Below the pieces are notes generated by a model. The model did no database searches, was not told the origin of the DNA, and was given only the letters and a program-made list of their open reading frames with translations. The position numbers and the translations under genes were made by a program. Of a DNA stretch of 47,124 bases, positions 2,872-31,086 are shown one piece after another. The first letter of the stretch is position 1. Each line of letters begins with the position of its first letter. The stretch covers positions 1 to 47,124 of IMG/VR virus record IMGVR_UViG_3300033388_003527. One strand, 5' to 3'. The stretch comes from a virus.

Positions 2872-3203
2872 ACAAAAGTAAAAAATGTGTTCAGTGGTTC
2901 TTAAAGTACTGCCCGGAGATAAAATCTATTGATATTAACTATCATAACAGAGTTACAGTAGTTAAATTAATGGACGGTAGAACAGCAGGGGTAAAGCTTA
3001 GGGATGAAACGTTTGACTTTGAGAAGGGTGTTCTGTGGGCTTATATGAAAGCTCATAAGAAGAAAGGGGATTTTATCGTTAGTGGACTTCCAGATAAGGT
3101 TATGTACAATGCCTTTAAAATACACTATAGGGGTGTTTTGTTTAAAAATGAAAAAGAATTTATGGAAGCTTGGAAAAAATTATTTTATATTTCTAAATAC
3201 TAA
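2868..3203 (+). CDS. Hypothetical protein, last gene of rightward block
   Basis: 111 residues, basic, no recognised motif. It overlaps the previous stop (ATGA). Its 3' end overlaps the 3' end of the convergent terminase gene by 11 bases, so the two transcription blocks meet with no intergenic terminator. Confidence 0.7.
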   Translation: MNKSKKCVQWFLKYCPEIKSIDINYHNRVTVVKLMDGRTAGVKLRDETFDFEKGVLWAYMKAHKKKGDFIVSGLPDKVMYNAFKIHYRGVLFKNEKEFMEAWKKLFYISKY

Positions 3204-4821
3204 TGTCCCTCATACCCTTAAGAAGATAGTTGTCCCCTCCCTGAAATGGTGGTGCTATCTGAATATCAGAGCTAGGTAGTATCACCTTCTTCTTTGCAAG
3301 TGTAGTGTTAGGTGGTTCATATTCCTTAGCAATTACTAAGCTTTCAAATATCCGAGCTGTGTCGATTGGGTCTTTGTAGGTTTCAGATTCTATTTCAAGG
3401 AACTGCCCCTTATTATTCTTCAGTTTCTCATCGTCCAACCAGTAATGAAATTTAAAGGACCGTATCATATTTTTACAGTGGGGCATGATATACCAAGACG
3501 GTTCGTTGTAAAAACTTAAATCAGAATGTTCACCTACATAATCCATCTCTGTCATGATTTTATTTCTCATGACTTCAACTCTATCTCTATGGGGTACTTC
3601 TATTTTAATTCCATACCTGGAAAATTCATCAACGATTGCTGTCTTACCTGCAAACCCTGGGTCTATCCCTCTCTTGAGTATGTGGTATCCAAGGTGTGTG
3701 TTGTCATACTGCATTATCTTTGCACTAAGATCCTTCACAGTCATAGAGTATATTTCATTGTTTCTTTTTTTGTGATACCATTCCCTGAACCAATCAAAAC
3801 TCGGCCACTCGTTATAACATACTCTATAAAACCTACCTTCTGAGTCAGGAGGAAACACGGCCCACCAACTAATGAAGGGATAAAATTTTTCATGATAATC
3901 AATACAGCAATAGCAATTAGCAAGCAGAAACCGTTCGTCATCCTCGTCAAAGTGTCTTACATGTGCTATTTCGGTGAACTTTTTGTAGACCTTGCCTTCC
4001 TTAGATAAATTAATACCCAGCACTCTTGCGTCCCATTGTCCAGGGGACACGGTTTTTTTCCAAGCTTCTATCTCTGCATTAGTTTGTAGCCCTCGCTTGG
4101 TTCCTTTTGAATTTAATTTTCCATCAGTACAGGAATTGTCATTTGCTGTGGCAGAAATTTTTATTACACGAGTTCCCTTTTCTTTAAGCTCATCGATAGT
4201 GTCTAACATTGGACCTGCCCGAAGAGGTGTTTCTGTAAATATTAATATCCCACCGTGAGAATGTCTTGCGGTGAAAGCTTCTACAAGTTCGGGCCTTGCA
4301 GGTTCGTCTATCCAATGCCACGCTATCATCCGACCTTCGAATTCATCAGGGTCTTGGTTAAATGTCATTACATCAAATAACCAATCTGTATCTGTGGTGT
4401 ACTCTGAAAAATAACCCTTCCCTGCTTTAACACTGGTAAATCTACCACTCGGAAACCATTTTAAAATTTCCTCTCGAATAGGTCCGGTTGATTTTGTATT
4501 CTGTGGTGTTCCTACAATTCTACCTCTTTTAATAGGTTCACCGTCTGCATTTTTAAATGGCCAATCCCTAAACAACGGGTAGTCAAAATAAAGAGGATCG
4601 TTCTCAAACATAATATTTTTAATTATGTTTGCGCCTAAACAAGTCTTACCTGATTTATTATTAGTCTGGATATTTATTATAGTAGTACCGTGAATACTTT
4701 TACCTATCTCAATGATAGCAGGTTCAAGAGATCCTGTGGGAACAAACACTTTCATTGTCCGACCTTGTATGTATTCCGGAACTAAATCTTTTAAGCCTTG
4801 GTAAAAATCATTGATTCTCAC
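3193..4821 (-). CDS. terL: Terminase large subunit
   Basis: The packaging motor ATPase and nuclease, 542 residues. Seen: Walker A TNNKSGKT (residues 53-60), Walker B WIDEP (170-174), coupling motif FTETP (195-199), and a C-terminal RNase H-like nuclease with the first acidic residue in CCIDYH (305-310) and later candidate acids in RGIDPGF (384-390) and DPIDTAR (480s). Length and order fit podovirus terminases. The segment IMPHCKNMIRSFKFHYWLDD (445-464) recurs in diverged form at the end of the O-antigen ligase-like protein at 29487. It overlaps its upstream neighbour, the likely small subunit, by 14 bases and is the last gene of the leftward block. Confidence 0.92.
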   Translation of the reverse strand: MRINDFYQGLKDLVPEYIQGRTMKVFVPTGSLEPAIIEIGKSIHGTTIINIQTNNKSGKTCLGANIIKNIMFENDPLYFDYPLFRDWPFKNADGEPIKRGRIVGTPQNTKSTGPIREEILKWFPSGRFTSVKAGKGYFSEYTTDTDWLFDVMTFNQDPDEFEGRMIAWHWIDEPARPELVEAFTARHSHGGILIFTETPLRAGPMLDTIDELKEKGTRVIKISATANDNSCTDGKLNSKGTKRGLQTNAEIEAWKKTVSPGQWDARVLGINLSKEGKVYKKFTEIAHVRHFDEDDERFLLANCYCCIDYHEKFYPFISWWAVFPPDSEGRFYRVCYNEWPSFDWFREWYHKKRNNEIYSMTVKDLSAKIMQYDNTHLGYHILKRGIDPGFAGKTAIVDEFSRYGIKIEVPHRDRVEVMRNKIMTEMDYVGEHSDLSFYNEPSWYIMPHCKNMIRSFKFHYWLDDEKLKNNKGQFLEIESETYKDPIDTARIFESLVIAKEYEPPNTTLAKKKVILPSSDIQIAPPFQGGDNYLLKGMRDISI

Positions 4822-5368
4822 TTTGCAACCTTTCTACACAAGCTATCCATAATGCAAGGGCTGTTTTCTGTTCCTCCTCTTTTAGCATTGACATTATTTC
4901 ACCTACACATTTAGATATTGCTTCCATACTACCCTCAAGATCTATCACTTCAGCAACAGGTGCCCGGTTTGGAAAAAATTTATCTGAAAGTATTTTTAGG
5001 CAGGCTATACTGTTCTTTTCAGCAGAGGAGTCTAGTATATCTAATTTATGTGGACCGCATTCGGGGCATTCTATCGGGTGTAACTCTTCACACTCAGGGC
5101 ACACAACAGAGTCAAGAAACTGTAGGTTTGGGCGGGTAGCTATATCAAATACACCATTAACAATACTTAAATGTACGCTTGATACATTAGTTTGCTCACC
5201 GTCTACTTTTCTTTCTTTGCATATGTGGGCTATAATTTTATCAAGATCTTTTTTCTTTTTAGGTAGCCCCTGCTTGTAATGTGCCCACTCTCCAGGGTGC
5301 TCTTTGTCTACAGATGTTTTTCCAAACGTAACTATATTTGTCTCTCTGGACTCTTGTTTCTTTTTCAT
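4808..5368 (-). CDS. Putative terminase small subunit, zinc-ribbon protein
   Basis: 186 residues immediately upstream of, and overlapping, the large terminase, the usual place for the DNA-recognition subunit. It contains a four-Cys knuckle (CPEC at 90-93 and 101-104) that could bind zinc, and a helical C-terminal region ending in LALWIACVERLQSENQ. No sequence match to a known small-terminase family was evident by eye, so the assignment rests on position. Confidence 0.5.
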   Translation of the reverse strand: MKKKQESRETNIVTFGKTSVDKEHPGEWAHYKQGLPKKKKDLDKIIAHICKERKVDGEQTNVSSVHLSIVNGVFDIATRPNLQFLDSVVCPECEELHPIECPECGPHKLDILDSSAEKNSIACLKILSDKFFPNRAPVAEVIDLEGSMEAISKCVGEIMSMLKEEEQKTALALWIACVERLQSENQ

Positions 5369-5383
5369 TTTCCCTCTCTGGGG

Positions 5384-5695
5384 TTATTTGTTTTTTACAT
5401 GAGCATTATATTTATCATCAGCTGCCTTTAATTGTTTCGAGGATAAATTTTCAATCACCAAGAATTTCAAATAGATCACGTCATTCTGAAGCCTCTTTAA
5501 ATGCTTTCGCGTTTCCTCTATTTGTAGTATGTGAACTTGGTTCTCTTCTATTGCGTTTGTCTTGTGTATGCTGGTGACATAGTTATCGATATGGGGCTTT
5601 GCTACTCCCATTCCAATACTTAGCAAAGTTATTAATACACCTACAATTTTACCTATCTCAATTACATGCTCACTGATTTTCTTTTTCATTTTCAA
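5384..5695 (-). CDS. Single-span membrane protein with coiled coil (spanin- or XhlA-like)
   Basis: 103 residues with one membrane helix (IVGVLITLLSIGMGVA, about 18-33) followed by a long polar helix (HILQIEETRKHLKRLQNDVI). This layout is seen in inner-membrane spanins and XhlA-type lysis accessory proteins. It lies between the ejection proteins and the terminase, where podoviruses often keep lysis genes. Lysis role inferred only. Confidence 0.5.
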   Translation of the reverse strand: MKMKKKISEHVIEIGKIVGVLITLLSIGMGVAKPHIDNYVTSIHKTNAIEENQVHILQIEETRKHLKRLQNDVIYLKFLVIENLSSKQLKAADDKYNAHVKNK

Positions 5696-5876
5696 CCCTT
5701 GGTTTAGTTTTTTCTCTCATTGGTTTGAGTATCGTATCAAAAAACATATTAAATACAGGCTTAACAAATCCGTCAAATAGTAAGTCGTCCCATTTCCAGG
5801 GGGACATTCTTACAGCCTTTTCTGTGGCATAGAAACCTAACATGATCCATTGCCAATTGTGTATCAACCATTCCAT
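5670..5876 (-). CDS. Small membrane protein, holin candidate
   Basis: The start is placed at ATG 5876, with GGAGG eight bases upstream; a GTG at 5885 would sit inside that site. 68 residues begin with a hydrophobic segment (MEWLIHNWQWIMLGFYATEK) and end in a charged tail, matching the general shape of small phage holins or holin-like proteins. It overlaps the next gene by 26 bases. Confidence 0.5.
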   Translation of the reverse strand: MEWLIHNWQWIMLGFYATEKAVRMSPWKWDDLLFDGFVKPVFNMFFDTILKPMREKTKPRVENEKENQ

Positions 5877-5881
5877 TGTTC

Positions 5882-7339
5882 TCACCTCCCTCTAAGTTGT
5901 AGTCCTTCAAGTCCTGATAGTCCAGCTGCTAATCCTGATTTTCCTGCCAAAGTTCTACTAACAGCAGCGCCGCCCTTTAATAATCCCTTTGCTCCTTTTT
6001 CTAACCCTGACAGTGTTGGTAAAGTTACTTTTGATGCTAATGATGGGGAGCCTAATGCTATTTGTGGGCCAACTGAAAGTAATGATCGCCCCGTCGTTTG
6101 CCTGGGTAAAAATGTAGGCTTGCCACCTGGCCCTATTTCGCCTGCTAATTTTGCAAGTTTTGATTTCTCTAAAAAATCCTGACCAAACATTTCACTGAGA
6201 TCTCTTACCAATTCTTGTTTTGCTTCGCTGTTTTTTCCAAACAGATTGTCAACAAAACCTTCAACCTTTCTATTTTGAATATCAACGCTCTTCCCGATAA
6301 ACCCTTTTAGTTTATCTTCGAGATCCATTTTCTTGGCGAGCGTCTGCATTGCTTGAGCATATTCAGGGTTCCCGCTTTTGTTTCCAGCCCTAACAAGTAT
6401 TTCTTTCATTTGAAATCTTGCGTCTTTTAGTGCTGAAATATAATCGTTTGTTTTCTGTTTTTTAAATGCCTCTCCAATTTCTTTGTCGATTCTCTTTCTA
6501 AGTCCAACGAATTGTTTAGCAGACATTTTTTTAGGGAACTTACCTTTGATGTCTGTTATGAAATTTTCTATCTGTCCCTGTGCAAGCTTTGATCTCCCTA
6601 TAGCAAGGTCATCAATAGAGTCTTCCAAAATTCTTACTGTTTTTTTAATACCAATTTGAGGCATTTTTTCTAATGCCTCACCGATAATTTTATTTTCAGG
6701 GATAAATTTATCAAAATCATTTATAGCATCCATCAACTTCAGGCCGACTTTCCTTTGGGTTCCAGATGCTTTTATTAAAGCTTTAGACCCTTCTTTAGTT
6801 CCGGCCATTCTTAGAGCCTCTTCGGATACTCCAGATAATTCCTGTGCAAGAAAACCAGCCGCTTTATTGGGTAGCTCTACTAATTTTTTTACACCTTTCT
6901 TGGCTAAACTTGCAAGCCCTGTTAATGGTAAAGTGGGATCGCTTAGTATTGAACCTCCTATTTCAACAGTACCCCTGGCTACCTTAGACGGAAAGCCTTC
7001 TCCTGGTATGCCACCTTTAAGTTTTTCTATCTCTGGCCTAAAGAACGCAGATTCAGGATCACTGGCCTTGAATTTTTCACCTGTTTCAGGATCTTTTCTT
7101 AGTTTTCCTGCTAACCTTACCGGTGTTCCCAAAGCTTCTAACCCTTGTAGAAATGCACCACCAACACCTTTCTTTTCAGATGTTGTTGGAAAGATAGCCT
7201 TTTCTACTTTTTCAGGAAGGCCGAACAGTGTACTTTCTTTTTCCTCAACAGGAGATATAGCCCCCTGTTGCGCAAGGGACTGTTTTTTTTTGAGTTGTAA
7301 ATATCTCAATCGTTTTCTTTTTTCTTCATTTGTTGGCAT
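5882..7339 (-). CDS. Internal virion (ejection) protein candidate
   Basis: 485 residues with a basic start, a long charged helical centre and a Gly/Ala/Ser/Leu-rich C-terminus (for example SLASKVTLPTLSGLEKGAKG) that could insert into membranes. This composition and its place after other internal proteins in the order portal-capsid-tail-fibre-ejection-terminase suggest a DNA-ejection protein like those of P22 or T7. No enzymatic motif seen. The gene starts just downstream of its neighbour with two bases between them. Confidence 0.55.
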   Translation of the reverse strand: MPTNEEKRKRLRYLQLKKKQSLAQQGAISPVEEKESTLFGLPEKVEKAIFPTTSEKKGVGGAFLQGLEALGTPVRLAGKLRKDPETGEKFKASDPESAFFRPEIEKLKGGIPGEGFPSKVARGTVEIGGSILSDPTLPLTGLASLAKKGVKKLVELPNKAAGFLAQELSGVSEEALRMAGTKEGSKALIKASGTQRKVGLKLMDAINDFDKFIPENKIIGEALEKMPQIGIKKTVRILEDSIDDLAIGRSKLAQGQIENFITDIKGKFPKKMSAKQFVGLRKRIDKEIGEAFKKQKTNDYISALKDARFQMKEILVRAGNKSGNPEYAQAMQTLAKKMDLEDKLKGFIGKSVDIQNRKVEGFVDNLFGKNSEAKQELVRDLSEMFGQDFLEKSKLAKLAGEIGPGGKPTFLPRQTTGRSLLSVGPQIALGSPSLASKVTLPTLSGLEKGAKGLLKGGAAVSRTLAGKSGLAAGLSGLEGLQLRGR

Positions 7340-25010: not shown

Positions 25011-26754
25011 TTGGTACTCCCTGTGGTTGAGGTTGTGGCGCTGGTAATTGTTGTTGCTGCTGTTGCTGTGGTTGCGCCTCTGGATAAACAACATCATTAT
25101 CACCTATATCTAATTTGCCCATCAAATTTTCTACTATTGCTTCCATATTTATTCTTTGGAATGCAGGGTCTTGAGTTCCTCTAAGATTCATTAGCATTGT
25201 AATAACATTGTTTAATCTCTTAGCTTCAGCTGTCTTGCTGCTGGTGTACGCTGTCCTGACTATAAACTCTAATGCTCCAAATATTTCATCTTTTCCCACT
25301 AACAACTCGTTCCCATCAGCTGCACTAATCGCAAACTCATCCGGGAATACTTGTCTCATCATATTTATGTTTAATCGAAACATATAAATAAGACCGTAAT
25401 TGAATTGATTGAGATATGAGCCTTCTTTTATATCTCCCTGGTCTTCAAGAGAATGTACAGCAGCAGCAGTGACATTCTCCATTGGGTTTGATTTACTTTG
25501 TCTTGTGTTAACATTTGGATTAGAAGCGGTACTTTGAACAGAGGAATTAATTTCTCTGAAGGCATCCTGCGTTCCCTGAACTGACCTATCTTCAAACTGA
25601 TTAAAAGCAAGCATATTGTTTATGTGCGTTCCTTCTTTTACATCCACACCTATCAATCCACCATTAACCCTGCGATTATTCCAATCAGCTGAATCTAATG
25701 TCCCTTTACCGTAGAATATATACTGGTCTAAAGCCCTCATAGCTACGTCAAGTTTAAGCCCCATCAAAGCGTTGTAAATATTCTCATGTGGAAGTATCAG
25801 CTCACCGTCAGTGCCGCCCCACCATACATCAGTCCTACGTATATAACGGAAGACTGTATAGGGCATCATGTTTCTATCCCAAATGTCTTTTTGTATTCGG
25901 ATAATCTTACCATCTACTATCTCAAGGTAATACGGGCTTTGGTTGTCTTCATTCCCTTCAATGTTGAGGGTGGAATACATGATAGTTTTATCTATCTGCC
26001 ATTCCCCACCATCCTCAGTTGCATCTGTTTTATAGTCTGTGTCCTTAACGCTCTCTTGTACCTTAAGAATCTTTTCACGGATTTTATTGACATTCTTTTT
26101 TACATAGAGACTTTTATCACTTTCAACCTGAGAAATAAATTCACTCATGTAGATTCGTTCAACATGACCGTGATAAAGTGAGTCTTCAAAATTGGGACAA
26201 CCGGGATCTTGAAATTTATTCCTTGGGTCAATAGCGAGATTTTTAATTACTGTATCTTCTTCACCCTTCACTTCTTTTCTGGTGAAACCATCACCCTCGT
26301 TAACAGTGACCATATAAGAACTCATAAGGAAGTCAGGGACGGAATAAGCTACTCCGGTTCCCCACTCTGCACAATTCTGTTTTATGATATCAAAATCTTT
26401 TTGTAGGAAACGAGTTCTCCGAAGGTTGTCATTCATTGCCTCTTCAATAGTTTTAGCGTTGTCTCTATCGGTGGAAGAAGTCTTTTTTACTGTAGCGAGA
26501 TTTTCACCGGGATAATTCCCATCGAAAATAAACTTTCTCATCATGCTGCGGGCTTTTTGTATTGGAAATCCTATCTTGGATTTATTGTTATCCTGCCCAT
26601 ATTCCATATTGTTCGAGTCGGTTAACCTGTCAATTCTTTTCTCAAGCCTCTTATATACGTCATTGCCGTAATAATTAGACTTTTGAGTAAGAGCTTTTTC
26701 GGTTATCTTCTTCTCAAACTTAGAAAATTTTTCTTCGAGGTTAATTTCCCCCAT
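25000..26754 (-). CDS. Portal protein
   Basis: 584 residues in the expected place upstream of scaffold and capsid. NCAEWGTGVAYSVPDF, EEDTVIKNLAIDPRNKFQDP, MPYTVFRYIRRTDVWWGG, ILPHENIYNALMGLKLDVAM and a helical C-terminal crown domain match podovirus-type portals. The tail is low-complexity (PQQQQQQQLPAPQPQPQG). It forms the dodecameric DNA channel and the docking site for terminase. The start ATG 26754 shares one base with the upstream stop. Confidence 0.85.
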   Translation of the reverse strand: MGEINLEEKFSKFEKKITEKALTQKSNYYGNDVYKRLEKRIDRLTDSNNMEYGQDNNKSKIGFPIQKARSMMRKFIFDGNYPGENLATVKKTSSTDRDNAKTIEEAMNDNLRRTRFLQKDFDIIKQNCAEWGTGVAYSVPDFLMSSYMVTVNEGDGFTRKEVKGEEDTVIKNLAIDPRNKFQDPGCPNFEDSLYHGHVERIYMSEFISQVESDKSLYVKKNVNKIREKILKVQESVKDTDYKTDATEDGGEWQIDKTIMYSTLNIEGNEDNQSPYYLEIVDGKIIRIQKDIWDRNMMPYTVFRYIRRTDVWWGGTDGELILPHENIYNALMGLKLDVAMRALDQYIFYGKGTLDSADWNNRRVNGGLIGVDVKEGTHINNMLAFNQFEDRSVQGTQDAFREINSSVQSTASNPNVNTRQSKSNPMENVTAAAVHSLEDQGDIKEGSYLNQFNYGLIYMFRLNINMMRQVFPDEFAISAADGNELLVGKDEIFGALEFIVRTAYTSSKTAEAKRLNNVITMLMNLRGTQDPAFQRINMEAIVENLMGKLDIGDNDVVYPEAQPQQQQQQQLPAPQPQPQGVPIAT

Positions 26755-27356
26755 TATCGATTCCTTGTATTCTGGTATATAGTTCCCTGGTGTTCAATGA
26801 TTATTTCAGGTGCGTATCCTGAAGCTTGCCCCACAGATATACCTAATCCCTCCACCCAATACCTCATAAGGTAAGTTTGGAAAGGTGTGAACCTAACTTG
26901 CATTATTGCATAATCGGGTACGTCTGAAGTGTCTATTGCTCTACTTGTTGCCTCGTCCATAGAAACCACATCCAAATAAGAATGTCTTGCTCTATGTGGG
27001 CCTACACCAAATGAATCAATTGCAAAAGTATCTAACACGTAAAGAATCTCTTCCCAGGAAGTATCCCTGGTGAGTCGACTTTTCACAGTAGTAGAATCAT
27101 CGGTATACGTTCCAAGCTGATAACCAAATACAAAATTAACACTGTCGCCAGAGAAACCAGCCTGTGCAGTATCCTTAACCTTCACTACTACCCAAAATGT
27201 TTCCCACTTACCAACATTTTCAATAATGGAATCAGAATAAATCACTACTCCTGAGTCTAACGTATCAGCACGAAATACAAGCGTGTCCCTCATTCCCTCC
27301 CAGTTTGTAGCGAATAGGTTAAGCGCTAAAATAACTATCCAAAAAAAATGTTTCAT
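26754..27356 (-). CDS. Signal-peptide protein upstream of the portal
   Basis: 200 residues starting MKHFFWIVILALNLFATNWEG, a clear signal peptide, followed by a beta-rich domain (DSGVVIYSDSIIENVGKWETF, SGDSVNFVFGYQLGTY). Like the proteins at 21099 and 16890 it is an exported protein in the virion operon. Its start overlaps the previous stop by four bases. Function unknown. Confidence 0.65.
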   Translation of the reverse strand: MKHFFWIVILALNLFATNWEGMRDTLVFRADTLDSGVVIYSDSIIENVGKWETFWVVVKVKDTAQAGFSGDSVNFVFGYQLGTYTDDSTTVKSRLTRDTSWEEILYVLDTFAIDSFGVGPHRARHSYLDVVSMDEATSRAIDTSDVPDYAIMQVRFTPFQTYLMRYWVEGLGISVGQASGYAPEIIIEHQGTIYQNTRNR

Positions 27357-28743: not shown

Positions 28744-29015
28744 TTTCGTGCTACTTTGTTTGCTATTTTATAAGTCCATCGCATATTAAGTACAATAATA
28801 TCATGCAGTCCCATTATTAACCCAATAACAACCACTAATACACAGGCAGTAAATAATAACCCAACAATTCCACGTATAAAAAAGTTTTCAAAGATTTCCA
28901 TTCCGTATATCAAATGGTGGACTTTCGAAGTAATAACAGAGCTCAACCATATTAATAAAATTACCCCAGCTATTTCAGATAATTTCAATCCTATAAATAT
29001 TAGTATTTTTTTCAT
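28740..29015 (-). CDS. Two-span membrane protein
   Basis: 91 residues with two long hydrophobic helices (about 5-28 and 46-72), a short loop and a basic C-terminus (YKIANKVARK). The shape is compatible with a holin or an exclusion protein; the context gives no lysis partner. It overlaps both neighbours by four bases. Confidence 0.55.
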   Translation of the reverse strand: MKKILIFIGLKLSEIAGVILLIWLSSVITSKVHHLIYGMEIFENFFIRGIVGLLFTACVLVVVIGLIMGLHDIIVLNMRWTYKIANKVARK

Positions 29016-29314
29016 ATACCCTCAATTAGTTTAATAAACCTTCTCGTACTTCCAAAATCAGGACAAAGCCTTTCTGTTATTATAAGATCTCTGTAGGCTT
29101 TTTTATAGTCTTTATTTACAAGATGCACTTGCCCTCTAACATAATAAGCTTTAAAATATCTTGGTTCCCTTTTAATTGTCTGATCTAACAATTTGATAGC
29201 TACATTATTATCTTTGGCGTTTATAGCAGAGAAAGCACCTAAGAAAGTCATATTAGCCATATAGTGATTTAAAGACCAAAATGTTATTATTATAAATAGA
29301 GTTATTCTAAACAA
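29012..29314 (-). CDS. Membrane-anchored TPR-like protein
   Basis: 100 residues. A signal anchor (MFRITLFIIITFWSLNHYM) is followed by two tetratricopeptide-like helical pairs: KDNNVAIKLLDQTIKREP and then YFKAYYVRGQVHLVNKDYKK, with the A-x3-G/A spacing of TPRs. Such domains bind other proteins. It would face the periplasm. It sits one gene away from the O-antigen ligase-like protein. Confidence 0.6.
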   Translation of the reverse strand: MFRITLFIIITFWSLNHYMANMTFLGAFSAINAKDNNVAIKLLDQTIKREPRYFKAYYVRGQVHLVNKDYKKAYRDLIITERLCPDFGSTRRFIKLIEGI

Positions 29315-29484
29315 TTTATACGCCTCCTGTTATCACTCAAAACATAAATATTCCAACATTTTGTGCAAGTTGCCGAAATAATACAATATTCAAAGTTTTG
29401 ATCTATAGACCTCGCTACCGATATTGTGAATTCTATATTCCCACAATCACATTTTAAGTTTCCTATCTCATTTAATTCAGACAT
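29302..29484 (-). CDS. Small zinc-ribbon-like protein
   Basis: Start at ATG 29484 (MSELNEIGNLKCDCGNIEF) with GGTGGA upstream. 60 residues containing CDC near position 12 and CTKC about 28 residues later, a likely zinc ribbon with a beta core. Its upstream region overlaps the ligase-like gene's end. Confidence 0.55.
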   Translation of the reverse strand: MSELNEIGNLKCDCGNIEFTISVARSIDQNFEYCIISATCTKCWNIYVLSDNRRRINCLE

Positions 29485-29486
29485 TC

Positions 29487-30551
29487 TTATTCGTCCACCC
29501 ACTTATGTTTTTTCCAAGAGTTAATTATTTCTTGGCAATGTGGCATAATAAAAAGACTCCTGTTAGAATATCCCTTATTTAAAAATCCAATTAAGGCCCA
29601 ATAGATAATTTGATTAGGTGGAGTATTTGTAGCACACTCCGAAACTATACCATAGAATAAATAAATGAACATTGCCAGCTTAAGATTTAAACTCCTTTTT
29701 CGTGCGATAGATAGTCCAGCGATTAATAAAAAAAGAATTAAAGCAACTGAGGAGCAACTTTGAAGAAATAAATAATGACTGTGCGGGCCTGCATTGTTCG
29801 GAACTGAGTTTACATGCATATCCCCGATACCTACACCTACTATAGGATTTTCTTTTACCATCTCCCACATTTTCGGCCACGTTGTTTCTATTCTCCCTCT
29901 GGACCCTGCATTGATTTCATTTCTCACTTGTGGGATACCTGCAAGGATGGCTAAACATGTCACAACTATTATCAATAGTTTCAATTGTACTTTAACGATA
30001 AGAAATATTATAATTGCAAGACACAAAGCCAGCATTGCACCACGGGCATGAGTTAAAACCAAAGCCCATAGAATAACCGGATATCCTATTAAATATATTC
30101 CCGGCTCCTGCTTTTTCAATCCTAATGCTAATACCATAGCAAGAAATAAACCGCCTACATTTTTATGCATAAATATAGGGTTGAAGTATCCGTATCCATT
30201 CGTGTAATAATGAATTGTATACCAAACCGAAGTCACTATCCCAGCGTAATAGATCCACCGAAAGATTTTCTCATCGAAATCAACATAAACATAAATCACA
30301 TAAAATGTAAGCAATCCAAGGTATTGGAAAAATAAGGGACGGTAATTGATAGACGAACCTGTTGTAGAAAAATATGATAAAGTTATTACCGTCCCAAACA
30401 AAGTAACTAATGTTATAATAGTAGATTTAGGAATTCCTTTGTACTTTTGGAAGCACATATATCCAGCTAACAAAATAGGAGCTACTACCTCTCTATCGTG
30501 TTGAGGGTTAAATACACTTGCTATGCAAATTATAAAAAGTATTATGTCCAT
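29487..30551 (-). CDS. O-antigen ligase / Wzy-like polymerase membrane protein
   Basis: 354 residues with about nine or ten membrane spans. It has the Wzy_C-type signature: LTHARGAMLALCLAI (166-180), then a large loop with SRGRIETTWPKMWEMV (217-232) and ENPIVGVGIGD (234-244), then GPHSHYLFLQ (255-264). In this family the loop Arg and His residues bind the undecaprenyl-linked glycan and transfer or polymerise O-antigen units. In phages such enzymes alter host surface polysaccharide. The last 20 residues (IMPHCQEIINSWKKHKWVDE) are not typical of the family but resemble residues 445-465 of this phage's large terminase. It overlaps the zinc-ribbon gene region downstream. Confidence 0.75.
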   Translation of the reverse strand: MDIILFIICIASVFNPQHDREVVAPILLAGYMCFQKYKGIPKSTIITLVTLFGTVITLSYFSTTGSSINYRPLFFQYLGLLTFYVIYVYVDFDEKIFRWIYYAGIVTSVWYTIHYYTNGYGYFNPIFMHKNVGGLFLAMVLALGLKKQEPGIYLIGYPVILWALVLTHARGAMLALCLAIIIFLIVKVQLKLLIIVVTCLAILAGIPQVRNEINAGSRGRIETTWPKMWEMVKENPIVGVGIGDMHVNSVPNNAGPHSHYLFLQSCSSVALILFLLIAGLSIARKRSLNLKLAMFIYLFYGIVSECATNTPPNQIIYWALIGFLNKGYSNRSLFIMPHCQEIINSWKKHKWVDE

Positions 30552-30566
30552 ATATCGTATTCTATT

Positions 30567-30911
30567 TTATTCATTAAACAAGCTCCTCACACAAGGGTTT
30601 GCATCTACAAGCGCAGTATATCTATTGCTAAACTGCCTACTTTGCCTCTCTTCTTCCCTTCTCATGCCTCTTTGAAATTCCAAATCACATTTGTGCATTT
30701 CATAGCTTGCAAGTCTTGCAGAAGCAGCCAACGCGGATGATATCACACCGGCGACCATCACACTACTTAAGCTTTGCCCTCGTTTAAGATTTACAGGTAT
30801 AAGCCCACCTGAAGACTTTGCATCTTCTATTACTGGCCTTTCCTCAGGAAACCAAAAATACCAATAGTGCCAGAAATAAGCTCTAATTATTTGAAACAAT
30901 CTATACTGCAT
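30567..30911 (-). CDS. Hypothetical protein with hydrophobic aromatic N-terminus
   Basis: Start at ATG 30911, overlapping the previous stop; a longer form from 30947 is open. 114 residues: an aromatic N-terminus (MQYRLFQIIRAYFWHYWYFW), a helix (SVMVAGVISSALAASARLAS) that may be membrane-active, and an Arg/Glu-rich helix. Possibly a small virion-type or membrane protein. Not recognised. Confidence 0.5.
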   Translation of the reverse strand: MQYRLFQIIRAYFWHYWYFWFPEERPVIEDAKSSGGLIPVNLKRGQSLSSVMVAGVISSALAASARLASYEMHKCDLEFQRGMRREEERQSRQFSNRYTALVDANPCVRSLFNE

Positions 30912-31086
30912 AAACCACACTTTGAAATTTCTGACCATCAGATTCAAACTCTACACAGGCGTGTTCTCTTCGAAGGTCTACTATGGAAATACTACCGTCA
31001 ATATTTTTAATACCGATATGTTTGTTTATACATTCAATAGTCACGTCACTTAACTCTTTTGCTGTTATTTTTGCCAGTACTTTCAT
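30901..31086 (-). CDS. Small beta-rich hypothetical protein
   Basis: 61 residues (MKVLAKITAKELSDVTIECI...VDLRREHACVEFESDGQKFQ), predicted small beta fold. It overlaps both adjacent genes. No family recognised. Confidence 0.5.
   Translation of the reverse strand: MKVLAKITAKELSDVTIECINKHIGIKNIDGSISIVDLRREHACVEFESDGQKFQSVVYAV

Follow-up and report, generated by a model that had tools for sequence, protein, structure and literature searches.

A TerL-like tail on a Wzy_C-type membrane protein of an IMG/VR virus, probably a remnant of an old recombination

In the window, that is the complete 47,124-base IMG/VR virus record analyzed here, we found a Wzy_C-type (O-antigen ligase/polymerase-like) membrane protein whose last 27 residues resemble a segment of the large terminase subunit (TerL) encoded in the same record. 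Our preferred explanation, to which we assign a probability of roughly two in three, is that this tail is the scar of an old illegitimate recombination, by which a remnant of a related TerL became appended to the membrane-protein gene.

The tail and the terminase segment it resembles

The tail comprises residues 328-354 of the membrane protein (YSNRSLFIMPHCQEIINSWKKHKWVDE, encoded at 29490..29570 on the minus strand) and was recovered by BLASTP against TerL as well as by a hidden Markov model (HMM) of the TerLs of two related loci, L005 and L006. It aligned without gaps to residues 438-464 of the window TerL (3430..3510, minus strand), with 13 of 27 residues identical and 20 of 27 similar (BLASTP E 4e-6 for the pair). 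The first-pass annotation had described a gapless match of the final 20 residues with 11-12 identities, and this was confirmed with 11 of 20 for IMPHCQEIINSWKKHKWVDE (29490-29549) against TerL I445-D464; the terminase segment had been placed one codon too far, at 3427, and lies at 3430-3489. The match runs 7 residues upstream of this 20-residue stretch, and at its other end it stops exactly at the stop codon of the membrane-protein gene. By inspection, no TerL-like sequence was seen in the frame just past this stop codon, nor was a donor TerL fragment seen beside the gene. Weak TerL-like stretches in the surroundings, e.g. WFMQYRLFQIIRAYFWHYW at 30861-30917 (E about 0.26), were judged to be chance matches.

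The window TerL itself (542 aa, 3193..4821, minus strand) showed 27% identity to the annotated TerL of Manatee Spring podovirus MW202524 (E 2e-21). Its AlphaFold2 model had a pLDDT of 82, with the phage D6E large terminase as the best Foldseek match among solved structures (E 1.4e-16) and a further match to the nuclease domain of P22. In this model the segment homologous to the tail consists of a strand (443-445), a helix (450-458) and a second strand (460-463), and the last helix of TerL follows at 483-495. The ORF directly upstream (4808..5368, minus strand) shares 39% and 32% identity with the ORFs immediately upstream of TerL in L005 and L006, respectively, and is a probable small terminase subunit (TerS) gene, named from its position.

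The membrane protein and its neighborhood

The gene carrying the tail (29487..30551, 354 aa) lies on the minus strand, as do most long ORFs of the window, structural genes included. Residues 160-260 of its product matched Pfam Wzy_C (PF04932) with an E value of 4.7e-9 and 36.6 bits, above the Pfam gathering cut-off of 31.7. The protein is polytopic, with at least six strongly hydrophobic 19-residue segments; a single-sequence structure model (pLDDT 45) was too poor for use. Wzy_C domains are found in O-antigen ligases and many Wzy polymerases (PMC12502699), and phage D3 uses a polymerase of its own for seroconversion (PMC12373910). On the strength of these parallels, the body of the protein likely serves in the modification of host surface polysaccharide, as a putative polymerase or ligase type, for example in receptor change or in the exclusion of other phages.

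Right after the stop codon begins a small cysteine-rich ORF (MSELNEI..., 29302..29484, minus strand) without a match in Pfam or PHROGs. The second gene downstream (29012..29314, minus strand) encodes a small protein that has a hydrophobic segment at its N-terminus and also a TPR-like region, where the match to TPR_16 (E 9e-6) stayed below the gathering score. As TPR repeats are frequent on bacterial Wzy_C proteins, this small protein may be a candidate split-off partner of the membrane protein. Another gene (26754-27356, minus strand) has a relative in L006 (4617-5051, 37% identical). In L006 this relative sits about 3 kb upstream of TerL; the distances of the window copy are about 22 kb to TerL and 2 kb to the membrane-protein gene, so that the gene order has been rearranged.

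Specificity of the match and the case for coincidence

For a comparison with the wider family, TerL relatives were collected from viral contigs. Across these relatives the segment follows the approximate pattern P-x-[LY]-[YF]-x(4)-C-x-N-x-I-x(2)-F, and among them IMPHC and HxW were confined to the TerLs of the window, L005 and L006. The tail has both motifs. Exact scans of IMG/VR with MPHC-x9-HxW and IM-x-HC-x11-WxD returned these three TerLs, the probable TerL part of a fourth locus and unrelated frames, and scans of the phages, viral_contigs and genome_contigs collections revealed no second tail-bearing protein. Since the motifs are confined to it and the scans returned no second tail, the tail is placed by its sequence with this narrow TerL subfamily. 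Of the residues conserved across the family (Pro441, Cys449, Asn451 and Ile453), the tail keeps Cys and Ile and has lost Pro and Asn, as expected after departure from TerL.

Two further observations concern TerLs in these loci. The fourth locus, L071, holds at position 384 (plus strand) the sequence IMEHCTNILGAYSAAVWDD in a 186-residue frame that resembles the C-terminal portion of one more TerL. L005 encodes, besides its intact TerL, a second, ATPase-only copy of 250 aa (5261-6013, plus strand; 48% identical to residues 26-269 of the window TerL), located upstream of the TerS-like ORF and the intact gene and near the latter. This copy keeps the Walker A-like GCKGGKTT and has an altered Walker B-like stretch, YLIDDIL for HWIDEP. 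TerL fragments can therefore occur as separate ORFs in this lineage, in line with the recombination reading.

The most serious competitor of the recombination reading is a chance likeness, in which a basic and aromatic C-terminus of a membrane protein would resemble TerL by accident. A statistical test of the match, proposed in the first-pass annotation, placed it above chance. The tail had an ungapped score of 83, whereas 20,000 shuffles of it averaged 11.9 and peaked at 52. When the 87 longest non-overlapping ORFs were all compared with one another, tail and TerL formed the top pair with 36.6 bits, a score reached in 1 of 400 shuffled proteomes. This corresponds to a per-window chance of about 0.25%, position not yet considered, a chance that matters if a large number of windows was screened and that to this extent speaks for coincidence and against a scar. 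A second, more severe null model, which compared real with reversed proteins, expects about 0.1 hits of such strength per window; it kept repetitive proteins and long alignments and was given less weight, yet it is still a reason for caution, as many windows were presumably read.

Comparisons with other TerLs gave results on both sides. The tail scored 72 and 67 against the TerLs of L005 and L006, respectively, and when chance look-alikes of the window TerL segment were simulated, only 1.5% matched the segments of L005 and L006 as well as the tail did (p 0.015). With an HMM built from the L005 and L006 TerLs alone, without the window TerL, the tail ranked first of all non-TerL frames in 8 loci (E 0.0012). 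With a profile that covers the entire and more diverse TerL family, the tail had a non-significant E value of 1.2, and the concentration of tail matches on TerL-conserved columns was only suggestive (hypergeometric p 0.087). A coincidence is made less likely by the flush position at the C-terminus and by the agreement with the sister TerLs, both of which are largely independent of the score, and the subfamily-specific motif is otherwise almost absent from IMG/VR. We consider a chance likeness improbable on balance, though worth bearing in mind.

Age, origin and known parallels

At the DNA level, the tail and the window TerL segment share 56% nucleotide identity and are saturated at synonymous sites. 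The 36 nucleotide differences fall on 17 third, 11 first and 8 second codon positions, so that the earlier description of codons differing mostly at third positions was roughly right. At 8 of the 11 identical residues for which synonymous codons exist, a different codon is used. A recent DNA copy of the window's own TerL is ruled out by this nucleotide identity and these codon differences, and the proposal of an old similarity at the protein level was upheld. The first-pass annotation had tied the tail to the terminase of this same phage; a terminase origin is the best-supported reading, whereas the attribution to this phage's own gene was too specific. The segment has three positions at which L005 and L006 have one residue in common and the window TerL another. 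At one of them (position 7) the tail carries the F of these sisters, at another (position 21) a residue of similar, basic kind (K for R), and at the third V, where the sisters have E and the window L. This agreement at two of three informative positions, together with the synonymous saturation, makes a related TerL, or an ancestral one, the probable donor.

The tail might also be a selected mimic of TerL, which would compete for or recruit a TerL partner (portal or TerS) at the membrane, or act as a decoy for an Avs-type terminase-sensing defence. That the frame is intact and 13 of 27 residues were kept although synonymous sites are saturated could reflect selection on the tail, and Foldseek also paired the window TerL with the PhiV-1 terminase bound by Avs3, a reminder that such defences recognise TerLs. 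The kept residues could equally stem from TerL divergence before the capture, however, as TerL pairs are also saturated at synonymous sites. Moreover, the segment is a small piece from inside a domain, its conserved Pro and Asn have been lost, and no partner was identified. We regard such mimicry as unlikely, and as somewhat more doubtful still that a surface-polysaccharide enzyme has kept a TerL-derived peptide at its cytoplasmic end because the peptide is of use, be it as a membrane tether for a packaging partner or to mislead a terminase-sensing host defence. A duplicated DNA site with the peptide as a by-product, for instance a packaging recognition site, is rejected as highly improbable: packaging sites can lie inside terminase genes and the stretch is within the TerL coding region, but the codon pattern and low nucleotide identity put the likeness at the protein and not the DNA level.

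Recombination of the membrane-protein gene with a terminase fragment is thus the best-supported of the earlier proposals, whereas the suggestion that the tail binds a terminase partner gained no support from anything tested. In the history that we infer, the membrane-protein gene would have been fused, at its 3' end and beyond the last membrane span, with a TerL remnant from this small subfamily by an old illegitimate recombination; the remnant would be the strand-helix-strand piece of the nuclease domain that precedes the last helix. The frame would have stayed open, with a stop codon 27 codons further, and the remnant would now form a short C-terminal extension, probably cytoplasmic and presumably devoid of terminase activity; the segment alone cannot be a nuclease. 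Against this scenario stands the shortness of the match. Also, no relative of the membrane protein, tailed or tailless, was found in the viral_contigs, phages, plasmids and genome_contigs collections by single-protein scans, which reach close relatives only. Neither Wzy_C nor the protein itself was present in the 22 records bearing TerL relatives, many of them short fragments; in all these searches the only hits were to TerL via the tail. No paper on a terminase fragment fused to another gene was found in a search of the literature.

As it stands, the tail is a modest curiosity of a little-known phage group. If the homology is true, a remnant of a packaging gene can persist in-frame on an unrelated membrane protein despite synonymous saturation, and one may ask whether such a remnant is of use or simply tolerated. 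If the tail were functional, it would connect DNA packaging with surface modification in an unexpected way.

Compared with known Wzy_C ligases and polymerases and with the seroconversion polymerase of phage D3, the protein shares the Wzy_C match, the hydrophobic segments and the encoding by a phage, and it differs in its TerL-like tail and in having no close relative in the collections searched. With the RNase H-type nuclease domain of TerL it has in common a 27-residue tail with the subfamily FIMPHC and HxW; unlike TerL, it lacks the ATPase domain and the other nuclease residues, as only the tail matches, and within the tail the Pro and Asn of the family. Phage mosaicism by illegitimate recombination leaves gene remnants at junctions. 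Like such junctions, the arrangement described here combines a piece of a phage gene with a gene unrelated to it, in an open frame and without any need for the piece to function; it differs in the age of the remnant and in its in-frame position at the end of a gene for a membrane protein, with the TerL gene about 25 kb away.
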